Shown: positions 599 to 61,300 of the stretch, one piece after another
Position numbering within the stretch: the stretch's first letter is position 1
Layout of the letters: every line of letters starts with the position of its first letter
From: an uncultured Opitutia bacterium
Lineage (GTDB): Bacteria; Verrucomicrobiota; Verrucomicrobiia; Opitutales; Opitutaceae
Length of the DNA stretch: 64,000 bases
Reading direction: 5' to 3'
NCBI GenBank assembly: GCA_903896015.1
Contig: CAITWF010000059.1
Coordinates: 62,001 to 126,000, forward strand
The notes under the pieces: model-generated
The model's input: only the letters and a program-made list of their open reading frames with translations
Told to the model about the DNA's origin: nothing
The model's database searches: none
Program-made: the position numbers and the translations under genes

Positions 599-2593
599 GT
601 GATCGTCTACGACAATTCGGAAGAATCCGGCAAAACCACCCCGCCCCTTTCCCACGACGTCCGCGAATACGAGCAGACGGCCCGCAAGTCCGCCTCGTCC
701 GGCCAGCTCCTCACCGCGATCGAGGTCGCGCGCGAAGGCATCAAGCGCTACGGCCAGAACCGGCTGCTCCAGCAGCAGCTCGCGCTCGCGCTCGCGCAGA
801 CGGGCGCGCTCGACGGCGCGCGCGAGGTGCTCAATGAGGTGATGGAGGAACCCGAGTCCGCGAAGGACGAGGAAACGCTCTCGCTGCTCGGCCGCGTCTA
901 CAAGGAACTCTGGCGCCGCTCCGGGGATCCCGCGATCGCGGCCGACGCGATCAAGCAGTCGGCCAAATTTTACGGCGACGCGTTCGCGATCAAGGAAGCG
1001 TATTATCCCGGCATCAACCTGGCCTTCACGCTGGCCGCGGCCGGCGACTTGAAGCAGGCGGTCGAAGTCGCGAAGAAGGTGGAGAAAATCTGCCGCACCG
1101 AGATCGGCCAGACGCTCGACAAGCCCGACGGCTGGATTTTCGCCACGCTGGCCGAGGCGCTTACGCATCAGGGCGCGACGGTGGCGGCCGCGGAGTATTA
1201 CAAGAAGGCGGCCGACATGTTCAAAGGCCGCTGGCGCGATCTGGCGTCGATGCGGAAACAGGCCCGCGAGATTATCGGTTTCGCCTCAAAATCCGAGGAA
1301 GGTACGCGCCACAACTGGTATGATCTCGCCTCGATTAAGAAGCGCGCGATGCGGATGACCGGCCGCAGCCAAGCGGGACAGGAGTGGCTGGACGCGTGTT
1401 TTTCGTTTCCTACGATCGTCGTCTTCTCCGGCCACATGGTCGATCGGCCGGGACGCCCCACGCCGCGCTTTCCCGCCGGGGCCGAGGCGCGCGTGCGCGA
1501 AGAAATCATGGCCTACCTCAAGAGCGTCAACGCCGGCTATGGCTACTCGTCGGCGGCATGCGGCGCGGACCTCATTTTCTGCGAGTGCCTGCTCGAGCTC
1601 GACGCGAAGATCAACATCGTGCTGCCCTGCCCGGTGCAGGCGTTCAAGAAGCAGAGCGTGTCGTGGGCCGGGCCGGAGTGGGAGCAGCGCTTTCTGAAAA
1701 TCCTCTCGCTCGCCAACTCTATCCTGATCGCAAGCCCCGCGGATTTCGTCGCAACGGACAACGATGTGGCGTCGACCATGGGGCTCGTCTACGCGAACAA
1801 GATCATCACGGGCCTCGCGGTGTTGCAGGCGCAGGCGCTCGACTTCGAGCTCCGGGCGCTCGCGGTGTGGGATGGCAAGGAAGGCACGAACGGCGAGAGC
1901 CGTGGCGGCACCGCCAGCGTCATCCACGAGTGGGAGGAACGGCAGCTCAATCCGCACCTCGTCAAACTGCGCCCGAGCGACGGCACGACCTCGGCGCCCG
2001 CCGACGCCACGATGCCCCCGATGCAGGTCGACAGCGGCTTCGATCACGAAATCAAGGCGATGGCGTTCGCCGAAATCATCAACCACCACAAAATCGGCGA
2101 GCGGCAGATGCCGGCCTTCGTGCGCAATTTCAAGGGTGCGATCGCCAAATTGATTACGGAGACGAAACTGTCGCCGCGCGTCGCGGAAAGCTGGGGCAAG
2201 TCACAGTCGTTCGTCTTTGACAGCCTGCAGCAGGCGGCGCTGTTTGCGCTCGCGCTGCGCGATCTGGTCGCCCGCACAAAATGGTCCGAGCAGGGCCTGC
2301 CCGCCGATCTCGGCGTACGGCTCGTGCTGCACGCCGGTCCAGTCTACACCTTCGAGGACCCGGTGCTGGCGCGGCAGACGTGCGCCGGGCTGCATCTCGG
2401 CCGCGCTGCGCGCATCGAACCGATCACGCCAGTGGGCCAGGTTTACGCCACGCAGGAGTTCGCCGCGCTGTGCAGCGCCGAGGATCTTTCGGCGGTGAGC
2501 TTCGAGTTTCTCGGCAATCTGCGCACCGCTAAACTCATGGAGGAAGCGCCGCTCTACCGGCTCGATCGCCGGCGGAAAAATTCCGCGACTTAG
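599..2593 (+). CDS. TPR (TRAFs-binding-like) / SLOG-like / degenerate class III cyclase fusion
   Basis: About 664 residues from the GTG at 599; an in-frame TTG at 563 is a longer alternative. Three regions are visible. Residues about 20-240 are helical TPR-like repeats (GQLLTAIEVAREGIKRYG, then LALALAQTGALDGAREVL) resembling the MAP3K TRAFs-binding family. Residues about 270-440 hold a Rossmann-like segment with FSGHMVD, SSAACGADLIFCE and INIVLPCP, resembling the SLOG nucleotide-binding superfamily. Residues about 470-650 align with class III nucleotide cyclases: AFAEIINHH sits where the first metal Asp motif belongs, WGKSQSFVFD where GDAxxAxF belongs, and LVLHAGPVYTFEDP where the IHTGPV strand belongs. 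The first metal Asp is Glu and the second is replaced, so ordinary cyclase activity is doubtful. It is soluble, with no signal peptide. Domain assignments are by eye; a signalling role is inference. Confidence 0.75.
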   Translation: MIVYDNSEESGKTTPPLSHDVREYEQTARKSASSGQLLTAIEVAREGIKRYGQNRLLQQQLALALAQTGALDGAREVLNEVMEEPESAKDEETLSLLGRVYKELWRRSGDPAIAADAIKQSAKFYGDAFAIKEAYYPGINLAFTLAAAGDLKQAVEVAKKVEKICRTEIGQTLDKPDGWIFATLAEALTHQGATVAAAEYYKKAADMFKGRWRDLASMRKQAREIIGFASKSEEGTRHNWYDLASIKKRAMRMTGRSQAGQEWLDACFSFPTIVVFSGHMVDRPGRPTPRFPAGAEARVREEIMAYLKSVNAGYGYSSAACGADLIFCECLLELDAKINIVLPCPVQAFKKQSVSWAGPEWEQRFLKILSLANSILIASPADFVATDNDVASTMGLVYANKIITGLAVLQAQALDFELRALAVWDGKEGTNGESRGGTASVIHEWEERQLNPHLVKLRPSDGTTSAPADATMPPMQVDSGFDHEIKAMAFAEIINHHKIGERQMPAFVRNFKGAIAKLITETKLSPRVAESWGKSQSFVFDSLQQAALFALALRDLVARTKWSEQGLPADLGVRLVLHAGPVYTFEDPVLARQTCAGLHLGRAARIEPITPVGQVYATQEFAALCSAEDLSAVSFEFLGNLRTAKLMEEAPLYRLDRRRKNSAT

Positions 2594-57364: not shown

Positions 57365-58393
57365 GTGCGCCCTTTCTTATCATGCCTGGCGGCGTCGCTT
57401 GTCGTCACAATCCTGTTGGGTTGCTCCCGCGAGTCCACCGGCTCAACCGCGTTAATACCCCCGCCCCCCGTGCAGGTGCAGATCGCCCCCGTGCAGCGTG
57501 AAGTCTCCCCTGGATTCGTTGAAATCCCCGGCGTGGTTCGACCGGTGGAGCGAGCAACGATCGCGGCAAAAATCTCAGGCACGATCGATTCACTCCCCAT
57601 CATTCTGGGCCAGACCGTGCGGCGGGGTGATCTCTTGGCCCGGGTGGCCGCACCGGAATTGAATGCCCGCCTTGCTTACAACCGGGCCCAACTCGACCAG
57701 GCGGAGCGCGAGGAAAAGCGCGATCGTGCACTCGCAGCCACCGGCGCAGACACGGCCGACGCCGCGCGTGCTTCCGTTGAGCGGCTCCAGGCCGCGCGCG
57801 CCGCGGTCGCCGAAGCCGAGGCCATGCTCGCCTACACGGAAATCCGCGCCCCCTACGACGGAAGGATTGCCCAGAAGCTGGCGTATCCTGGCGATTTCGC
57901 CGTGCCCGGTTCTGCGTTGCTCTCACTAGAGCGCTCCCCTGCTCTGCAAATCGAGACGGCCGTGCCCGCTTCACTCGCGCCCACTCTCACCCTCGGCGCG
58001 GAATTGGCCGTCCAAATCTCCGGCCTTACTCAACCGACGATCGGCCGAGTTGCGGAGATTGCCTCAGCCGCCGACGCCGCGACGCATACGGTGCTCGCGA
58101 AACTCGATCTGCCCGCCCCTCAACCGTCGTGGTCCGGCCGTGCGGTGCGAGTGCAGCTGAGCGGCGACGCTTCCGAGGCCCTCCTTGTGCCGACGGCCTG
58201 CGTCTCGAGGTTCGGCCAAATGGAGCGGGTCTTCGTTCTTGCTGCCGGAAAAGCGCAGCTTCGCCTCGTGAGAACCGGCGCCGTGCGCGGCGACCGTATC
58301 GAACTGCTCAGCGGAGTCACCTCCGGCGAAAATATCGTGGTCGCGCCGCCCGACAACCTGCGCGACGGCCAGCCGATCGCGATCACTCCATGA
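57365..58393 (+). CDS. RND periplasmic adaptor lipoprotein (second pump)
   Basis: A 342-residue adaptor starting at GTG, with lipobox TILLGC. The lipoyl halves are [19 protein letters not shown] and [21 protein letters not shown], with a short hairpin between (about 105-145). It ends [19 protein letters not shown]. Eight bases separate it from the DUF2892 gene; its TGA overlaps the RND ATG (ATGA at 58390). It differs clearly from the adaptor at 29399. Confidence 0.92.
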
Positions 58394-61300
58394 GTGCGAC
58401 GCCGGCCAACACGCCGCGCGGGATCGCCGGCCGGCTGGCCGCAGCGTTTATTCATTCCCGCCTCACTCCGCTCGCGGTCATCGCCTCCCTGCTGCTGGGC
58501 GCATTTGCCGTGCTGCTCCTGCCGCGCGAGGAGGAGCCGCAGATCAAGGTGCCGATGATCGACGTCATCGTAGCGATGCCGGGGGCCACCGCGCACGAGG
58601 TCGAGAACCGCGTCACCCGCCCGATGGAGAAACTTCTGTGGGAGGTTCCCGGCGTCGAATACGTCTATTCCACGTCGCGCCCGGGCAACGGCCAGACGAT
58701 CGTGCGGTTCAACGTTGGCTCCGACCTTGAGCAGAGCTTGGTGCGGCTGAACCAAAAGCTGCAGCAGCACTTCGATCTCATCCCGCCGGGCGCAAGCCAA
58801 CCCATCGTGAAACCGCGCGGCATCGATGACGTCCCCATCCTGGCGCTCACGCTGCATAGTCGCACGACTGATCACTTCACGCTCCGCCGCCTGGCCGCGC
58901 AACTCGACGACGCGATCAAATCCCTGCCCGAGGTTGCGGAAACCAATCTCATCGGCGGCACGCGCCGGCAAATTCGGATCGAGCCAATGCCCGCCGCCCT
59001 CGCCGCCCACAGCATCACGTTCGAATCGGTTGTCACCGCCCTCGCCGGCGCCAATGCCCGCGCTCAGGCGGGCGCAGCCGCCAACGCCAACCGCTCCGTG
59101 CTGGTTGAAACCGGCCCGTTTTTGCGTGATGCGCGCGAAGTCGGGGCCGTCGTGGTCGCCGTATCAAATTCCAAACCGGTCTACCTTCGCGATGTCGCCG
59201 CGATTCTTGATGGGCCCGAGGAGCCAAACGATTACGTGCTCTTCGGCCTCGCCGGCACCGGCGGGACCGATGACGAGGCTGCCGTCACGCTCAGCGTGGC
59301 AAAGCGCCCCGGCGCCAACGCCGTTACCGTCGTCGAGCGCGTCCTGCACAACGTTGCCGCCATGCGTGGTGCGCTACTCCCGGCCGATGTGGCGATCACC
59401 CTCACGCGCAACTACGGCGCGACCGCCGCGGAAAAATCCAACGAGCTGCTCCTGCACATGGGCATCGCGGTGTTCGGCGTCACGTTGCTCATCCTCGTAT
59501 TTCTCGGCTGGCGCGAGTCGCTCGTCGTGTTGCTCGCGATCCCCGTGACGCTCGGGCTCACCCTACTGGTCTTCTATCTCTACGGCTACACGCTCAACCG
59601 CATCACGCTTTTCGCGCTGATTTTTTCCGTCGGCATCCTGGTGGACGACGCGATTGTCGTCGTCGAAAACATCGTGCGCCACCTGCGCCTGCCGTCATCG
59701 CGCGGCCAGCCGTTGCACGACATCGCCGTCGAGGCGGTCGAGGAAGTCGGCAATCCCACCATCGTCGCCACGTGGGCCGTGATCGCCGCGGTGCTGCCGA
59801 TGGCATTCGTCGGCGGACTCATGGGTCCCTACATGCGGCCCATTCCGATCGGTGCAAGCGCGGCGATGATATTCTCGCTCGCGGTGGCCTTCGTGATCAC
59901 GCCGTGGGCCGCGTTGCGCGTCCTCGACCGTCGCCCACCGCCTGCGGCCGGCGCACAACTTGCGGAACTCGACAAGCGCGAGCCCGACACGTTTTTCACG
60001 CGCCTCTATCATCGCATTGTGGGGCCGCTCATCGCGCAGCCGCGCGTCCGTTGGATTTTTCTTGGCGTGGTCGCGCTGCTCACACTCGGAGCGTTTGCGC
60101 TCGTGCCCCTCCGGCGCGTGCAGGTGAAGATGCTGCCGTTCGACAACAAGTCCGAATTCCAGCTGATCCTCAATATGCCGGAGGGCAGCACGCTCGAGCA
60201 AACCGCGGCAGTCGCGCACGAGCTCGCCACCGCCATTCGCACCGAGCCAGAGGTGCGCGACTACCAAATCTACGCAGGCACGGCGGCGCCGTTTAATTTT
60301 AACGGGCTCGTCCGTCACTATTTTCAGCGCCGCGGGGCGAATGTCGCCGACGTGCAGGTGAACCTGCTGCCGAAGGACGAGCGACGCGCGCAAAGCCACG
60401 AGATCGCCAGGCGCGTGCGCCCGCGTCTCGCCGCGATCGCCGCCCAGCACGGCGCGCGGATCGCGGTCGCCGAGGTGCCGCCCGGTCCGCCGGTCTTGGA
60501 GACGCTCGTCGCCGAAATCTACGGCCCGACCGAGGAGGCGCGCCTCGGCCTCGCGACCCGCGTGCGCGACCTGTTCAAATCCACCCCGGGGATCGTCGAC
60601 ATCGACTGGTATGTCGAGGAGGAGCAGCCCACCGTCCAGTTCGTCGTCGATCGTGCGCAAGCCGCGCTCCACGGCATCAGCACCGAAACCATCGCGCGCA
60701 CGGTCCAGACCGCGCTCACCGGCCAGCCGATTGGTTTGCTTCATGCACCCGCCGAACGGGAAGACGTGTCACTCGTCCTCCAATTGCCCCGCACAGCCCG
60801 GGCGCGACCCGAGGATCTGCTCGCGATCCACGTCCGCTCTGATCGCGATCCCGCGGCTCCTTTGGTGCCGCTGCGCGAACTCGTCTCGGTCGAGCACACG
60901 AAAGGCGAGCGCAACCTCTACCGCAAAAACCTCCACCCGGTCATCTACGTGACCGCGGATGTCTCGGGTGCGTTCGAAAGTCCGGTGCCCGCCATTCTTG
61001 CGATGAACAGCTCGCTCGCCAAAATCGACGCGCGTGAATTTGGCGGCTCTGATGCCAGGCTGCAGGTGTTCAACCTGGATCTACCCGCCACCGACCTCGC
61101 GCCCGCGCTGAAGTGGGATGGCGAGTGGCAGGTCACGCTCGAGGTGTTTCGCGACATGGGCATCGCGTTCGCCGCGGTGTGCATTCTGATCTACATGCTC
61201 ATGGTTGGGTGGTTTAAGAGCTACGTGACGCCGTTCGTCATCATGGCGGTGATTCCGCTCTCGCTCATCGGCATCCTCCCGGCGCACTGGCTGCTGGGCG

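Follow-up and report, generated by a model that had tools for sequence, protein, structure and literature searches.

The window, a 64,000-nucleotide stretch of DNA on contig C59 from a genome of 4.96 Mb whose closest named relatives belong to the Opitutaceae, encodes a protein in which a TPR-S scaffold, a YpsA-like SLOG domain and a class III cyclase homology domain are fused. The cyclase domain has lost its metal-binding aspartates throughout a clade of Opitutaceae proteins and is nevertheless under purifying selection, and the gene family travels with TIR-domain genes. The whole protein belongs among TIR-linked sensor proteins and is not a new category. We propose, with about even confidence, that it acts as a receptor or adaptor in the TIR-linked NAD signalling of Opitutaceae, with the pseudo-cyclase as its output.

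Architecture of the protein

The gene and its parts are located as follows.

599–2593, + strand: TPR-S / SLOG / pseudo-cyclase gene (GTG start, 664 amino acids, full-length homologues)
656–1288, + strand: helical TPR-S (ASK1-type) scaffold, residues 20–230 (PF20308 and PF13281; pLDDT mostly 80–97, all-helical)
1382–1972, + strand: YpsA-like SLOG domain, residues 262–458 (GHM, SAACGAD, VLPCP and WDG..GGT motifs kept)
1973–2035, + strand: disordered, fast-evolving linker, residues 459–479 (pLDDT below 50 at 461–477; dN/dS 0.43–1.75)
2036–2578, + strand: degenerate class III cyclase homology domain, residues 480–660 (Z 18–20; hhalign; dN/dS 0.05–0.29)

The stop codon of the open reading frame ends at 2593, and a TTG at 563 is an alternative upstream start. 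Its genome carries a single copy of the gene. Full-length homologues are found in 10 other Opitutaceae proteins (79–48% identity) and beyond (24–37%), and the three-domain architecture is conserved across Verrucomicrobiota. A search of the genome contigs returned two close loci only, and no relative of the protein was found in the phage records and viral contigs searched. The AlphaFold2 model of the whole protein, built from an alignment of 26 homologues from which one plasmid relative was left out, has a mean pLDDT of 82.6 and consists of three ordered blocks: a helical block (residues 21–230) and two alpha/beta blocks (270–456 and 482–657). Residues 232–255 and 461–477 are poorly predicted and probably disordered.

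Searched alone against Pfam, NCBIfam and PADLOC, the protein is matched in its TPR part only, with nothing past the first 230 residues in Pfam; the PADLOC models gave no match for the window protein or for two relatives. The SLOG and cyclase assignments are drawn from family alignments and structure. By profiles and structure matches, all three domains named in the preliminary description (TPR/TRAFs-binding, SLOG and class III cyclase-like) are confirmed.

The N-terminal region matches TPR-S (PF20308; E 9.8e-21, 74.7 bits against a Pfam cut-off of 27.6) and MAP3K_TRAF_bd (E 1.2e-10), and PF20308 is matched by all 21 family members, with E values up to 0.01. The family profile reaches the ASK1 structure 5ulm (E 6.7e-5). 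The scaffold is thus like that of the TPR-S family and the central regulatory region of the human stress kinase ASK1 (MAP3K5), being detectably related to ASK1 5ulm/8qgy, but where those have a kinase or a different output, it is joined here to SLOG and cyclase-fold domains. Recognition of NAD-derived signals by TPR-S is reportedly a published prediction. On a Paraburkholderia plasmid (L075:8923-11044), a lone SLOG gene converges on a neighbouring TPR-S gene whose N-terminal domain is a different one, an arrangement that amounts to the fusion taken apart.

Predicted in isolation, the SLOG domain reaches a pLDDT of 90.5. Its best PDB match is YpsA (2nx2; Z 17.8, rmsd 2.1, 152 aligned residues), followed by weaker matches to DprA (Z 12.4), LOG-type proteins (Z about 10) and part of TRPM4. 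In a five-sequence search, the SLOG profile A4 matches (i-E 2e-13 to 5e-7) the N-terminal parts of proteins from L023, L050 and L073, the C-terminal parts of which fit SLATT_1 or DUF4231; such a partnership is typical for SLOG. The Pfam SLOG models gave no relevant match among 23 members. Because these models cover only some SLOG families, this lowers the naming of the domain, not its fold assignment.

Sensors of cADPR are among the members of the YpsA-like SLOG clade, and Thoeris ThsA recognizes a variant cADPR through its SLOG domain (PMC9503650). The window domain is closest in fold to YpsA; ThsA, however, has a SIR2 NADase joined to its SLOG domain, whereas the window protein has no SIR2 match. 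In the LOG clade, SLOG relatives cut the bond between base and ribose (PMC9503650). This activity, together with the high conservation of the motifs, would fit a SLOG domain that itself works as an N-glycosidase on NAD-derived or other nucleotides, in which case the protein would remove a signal and not sense it. We consider this quite improbable, given that the structure is nearest to YpsA and not to LOG (Z 17.8 versus about 10) and that the window sequence, RGGTASVIHEW, does not have the LOG catalytic motif PGGxGTxxE.

A cyclase-fold domain without its metal site

Three codons mark the changes discussed below.

2072–2074, + strand: codon of E492, first metal-binding Asp position (Glu in 11/11 clade members, Asp in 14/14 metal-site-intact relatives)
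2186–2188, + strand: codon of E530, purine-selecting position (Glu in 11/11 clade members, Asn or Arg in the 14 compared relatives)
2198–2200, + strand: codon of K534, second metal-binding Asp position (Lys, Arg, Gly or Ala in the clade, Asp in 14/14 compared relatives)

The C-terminal region does relate to cyclases, as profile searches and structure prediction of the three regions show: the model of this domain matches class III cyclases with a Z score of about 20 over 170–179 residues. Pfam cyclase models do not match the window protein alone; they match 8 of 21 family members, several of them through PF00211. Proteins with the degenerate domain (the pseudo clade) and metal-site-intact relatives, a term by which we mean that both metal-binding Asp are kept in the sequence and which says nothing of activity, align from end to end (hhalign 100%, E 1.1e-59). 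The domain therefore has the fold of class III adenylyl/guanylyl cyclases (PF00211) and is directly homologous to them via the relatives that keep both Asp, but the pseudo clade has lost both and carries an invariant Glu at the first-Asp and at the purine-selecting positions.

In the window protein, the change of both Asp that had been read from the motifs FAEI and WGK is confirmed, with E492 and K534 each standing in place of D. Position 530 aligns with the purine-selecting Lys of adenylyl cyclases and with the Glu of the guanylyl cyclase 3et6, and L073, a divergent plasmid relative outside the 14 compared, also has Glu there. The transition-state Asn-x-x-x-Arg pair is incomplete, with G601 at the Asn position and Arg605 kept; across the pseudo clade the Asn position is occupied by G, S, N, T, L or Q.

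Eleven Opitutaceae proteins, including that of the window, form one clade with a support of 100/100 in a 28-row tree. Both metal-binding Asp are absent from all 11 and kept in every other full-length row but L084, a very divergent relative from another family in which both were also lost, apparently independently, and which was excluded from the comparison of intact and pseudo proteins. Nine residues are invariant and specific to the clade: E492, E530, A547, G572, R592, E620, C625, F637 and R654.

The dead cyclase domain is under purifying selection. For the closest pair, its dN/dS is 0.047, whereas the other two domains have 0.08–0.09 and the linker has 0.5; its values in six wider pairs, in which synonymous sites are partly saturated, are 0.09–0.29. 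The cyclase-fold domain has the lowest value of the domains in 5 of 7 pairs and is otherwise near the others, and linker values range from 0.43 to 1.75 across pairs. Such low values (0.05–0.29 overall) indicate that the domain was repurposed and is not decaying and, together with the residues invariant in the clade only, that it is maintained for something besides ordinary two-metal catalysis. The loss of both Asp, and in the window protein of the transition-state Asn as well, is what a decaying pseudodomain without function would also display; with dN/dS well below 1 and many new invariant residues common to the clade, we rejected this reading as barely credible.

RyR-fused relatives (L048 and L050) present the converse of the window clade, with the cyclase metal sites kept and the SLOG motifs lost, so the SLOG and cyclase modules degenerate independently of each other. 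In both, the RyR domain is N-terminal and ABC-transporter-like genes adjoin the gene; a subtilisin-family protease gene also adjoins that of L048.

Association with TIR genes

Among 100 Opitutaceae genomes, 16 carry the family gene. TIR proteins are present in all 16 of these, compared with 38 of the 84 others (P 1.6e-5), and the median number of TIR genes per genome is 8 with the family gene and 0 without it. The pseudo clade taken alone gives the same picture (TIR in 11/11 genomes, P 5e-4). The co-distribution is not fully independent of phylogeny: counted by genus, which is a genus-level treatment and no full tree correction, TIR is present in 10/10 versus 22/39 genera (P 0.009). A control family, type I restriction specificity, goes the other way (2/16 gene-bearing genomes versus 40/84 others), which argues that the pattern does not come from a general excess of defence genes.

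Physical linkage is also found. In 4 of 21 genera, against an expectation of 0.08, a TIR domain lies at most 600 nt from the family gene (P 7e-7); for a distance of 5 kb the count is 7 of 21, against an expectation of 0.51 (P 1e-7). The expected values were derived from the TIR count of each genome with TIR genes placed at random, and the P values are approximate since TIR genes cluster. TIR repertoires can be very large, often in tandem clusters, with 24 TIR_2 matches in the window's own genome and up to 50 in genome G043.

That no partner gene is visible and that the protein may act alone, as suggested previously, is not supported. Two TIR genes (C59:55792-58263 and 58263-61043) precede the first base of the window (62001) on its own contig, the nearer ending about 1.6 kb before the family gene and the other, a TIR-cyclase gene, about 4.3 kb upstream of it. 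TIR linkage recurs in relatives. Downstream of the closest sister (79% identity, genome G043), at a distance of 135 nt and in the same orientation, lies a TIR-TPR gene, found by genome search and six-frame scan. Among metal-site-intact relatives, three genomes of one genus have a TIR gene within 67–85 nt downstream (a TIR-FGE-sulfatase in L043, the one scanned of that genus), L076 has a TIR-TPR gene 47 nt downstream, and three genomes of another genus have divergent TIR genes at 234–516 nt. The TIR neighbours match PADLOC TIR effector models. Other relatives neighbour a DUF4062-NACHT-TPR gene (L042) or nSTAND1-WD40-FGE-sulfatase and SIR2-TIR genes (L080), and a relative on a Caballeronia plasmid shares its region with TIR and SLOG-SLATT genes. 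In L083:356-10651, the family is split into two genes, TPR-S/SLOG overlapping a separate cyclase, with a TIR-TPR gene alongside. A second split version (L082:5978-9938) sits in a cluster with an HD-domain protein and a GAF-like protein, and the clusters of both split versions include subtilisin-like proteases.

The TIR, nSTAND1, DUF4062-NACHT, SIR2-TIR and SLOG-SLATT genes beside relatives support a signalling or conflict context, and the homologues surveyed are not confined to non-variable metabolic loci devoid of sensor partners. Within the pseudo clade, no TIR gene was seen around 9 of 11 members over the flanks covered (up to some 8–10 kb on each side), and the TIR link there accordingly derives mostly from co-distribution. 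These nine members, the AEC transporter and FAD oxidoreductase genes that adjoin the gene in several clade members and look housekeeping-like, and the failure to find a relative in phages would all suit an ordinary Opitutaceae housekeeping regulator, the TIR link being inherited from the wider family or from TIR-rich genomes. We regard such a regulator as unlikely: the distribution is patchy (16/100 genomes) and the neighbourhoods change, the gene's co-distribution holds for TIR and not for the type I restriction specificity family, and the closest sister directly adjoins a TIR gene.

Proposed function of the pseudo-cyclase protein

Because the family travels with TIR-domain genes, the protein probably belongs to their NAD-based signalling network. 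In the receptor or adaptor role that we favour, a TIR-domain enzyme elsewhere in the cell would make an NAD-derived small molecule, which would be bound by the YpsA-like SLOG domain, the TPR-S scaffold or both; the NAD-derived ligand and the SLOG domain as its sensor are inferred from known families. The change on binding would be relayed across the flexible linker to the cyclase-fold domain at the C-terminus. Where both metal-binding Asp are kept, as in most relatives, the product of this domain would be a cyclic mononucleotide. For the clade of the window protein, the usual two-metal reaction would be impossible and the domain, judging by its residues, has most likely been rebuilt as a non-catalytic output. 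As for the binding partner and output of the pseudo-cyclase, we can only speculate: most likely it would be a nucleotide-triggered or protein-binding dimerization module, and it might regulate catalytic cyclase domains, for example that of the upstream TIR-cyclase protein.

As a whole, the protein does not warrant the label 'undescribed' that was first attached to it: TPR-S is a family of sensors with a name of its own, the cyclase metal sites survive in most relatives, several relatives adjoin TIR genes, and inactive cyclase domains in conflict systems have already been reported as a class (PMC7159879). In that work, Kaur et al. (2020) considered inactive cNMP cyclase domains as possible nucleotide binders or dominant-negative regulators (PMC7159879). 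The present family likewise has inactive cyclase domains, in its case with relatives that adjoin nSTAND1, FGE-sulfatase, NACHT and TIR genes; it differs in its TPR-S/SLOG/cyclase architecture and in that no MoxR-vWA core was noticed among the selected neighbours scanned. In the literature covered, which does not extend to the likeliest source, Burroughs and Aravind 2020 (J Bacteriol), we found neither this architecture described nor a clade-specific, selectively maintained pseudo-cyclase with an altered purine-site residue; the fusion itself may have been described before.

Three modules each known on its own from immunity (ASK-type TPR-S, YpsA-like SLOG and class III cyclase) are here tied to TIR genes statistically, beyond resemblance. 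The family also provides a natural experiment, in which a group with intact metal sites can be set against a clade in which catalysis has apparently been lost and selection on the domain kept. Comparing the two would reveal the ligands of TPR-S/SLOG receptors and tell whether signalling below bacterial TIR enzymes normally ends in a cyclic nucleotide.

For the output of the pseudo-cyclase, the invariant Glu530 leads to a specific guess, guanine-nucleotide binding. The protein would then be a TIR-linked immune receptor whose cyclase has become a non-catalytic switch that reads guanine nucleotides through Glu530, integrating a TIR-made NAD signal, received by SLOG/TPR-S, with the nucleotide level; in this full form we hold the proposal to be improbable.

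The main alternative is that the pseudo-cyclase regulates a cyclase domain that is catalytic. In mammalian adenylyl cyclases the purine pocket comes from the C2 half; the C-terminal domain could contribute one likewise and so still be part of an active cyclase, paired with the catalytic cyclase domain of another protein. Candidates exist in the genome, which encodes five other cyclase-domain proteins. One of them, encoded upstream at C59:55792-58263 (L052:3792-6263), is an 823-residue protein with TIR, class III cyclase (PF00211, E 3e-7) and TPR regions, the motifs of which (FTDAVGYS, KSTGD and GVNLAAR) look intact and carry the adenylyl-type Lys/Asp. Such a pairing would suit two features of the domain: the Glu at purine-selecting position 530, which does not vary in the clade, and the Arg of the transition-state pair, which the window protein retains as Arg605. 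Unlike a C2-type half, however, the domain in this clade does not retain the transition-state Asn, and no TIR-cyclase gene was seen beside other clade members in the stretches examined; we rate C2-like pairing as a rather doubtful alternative to the receptor or adaptor with a non-catalytic output proposed above.

The TIR-TPR gene that follows the TIR-cyclase gene (C59:58263-61540, L052:6263-9540) may shift frame near its 3′ end, where it is overlapped and extended by a second open frame (L052:8491-9540), through either a frameshift or an assembly error.
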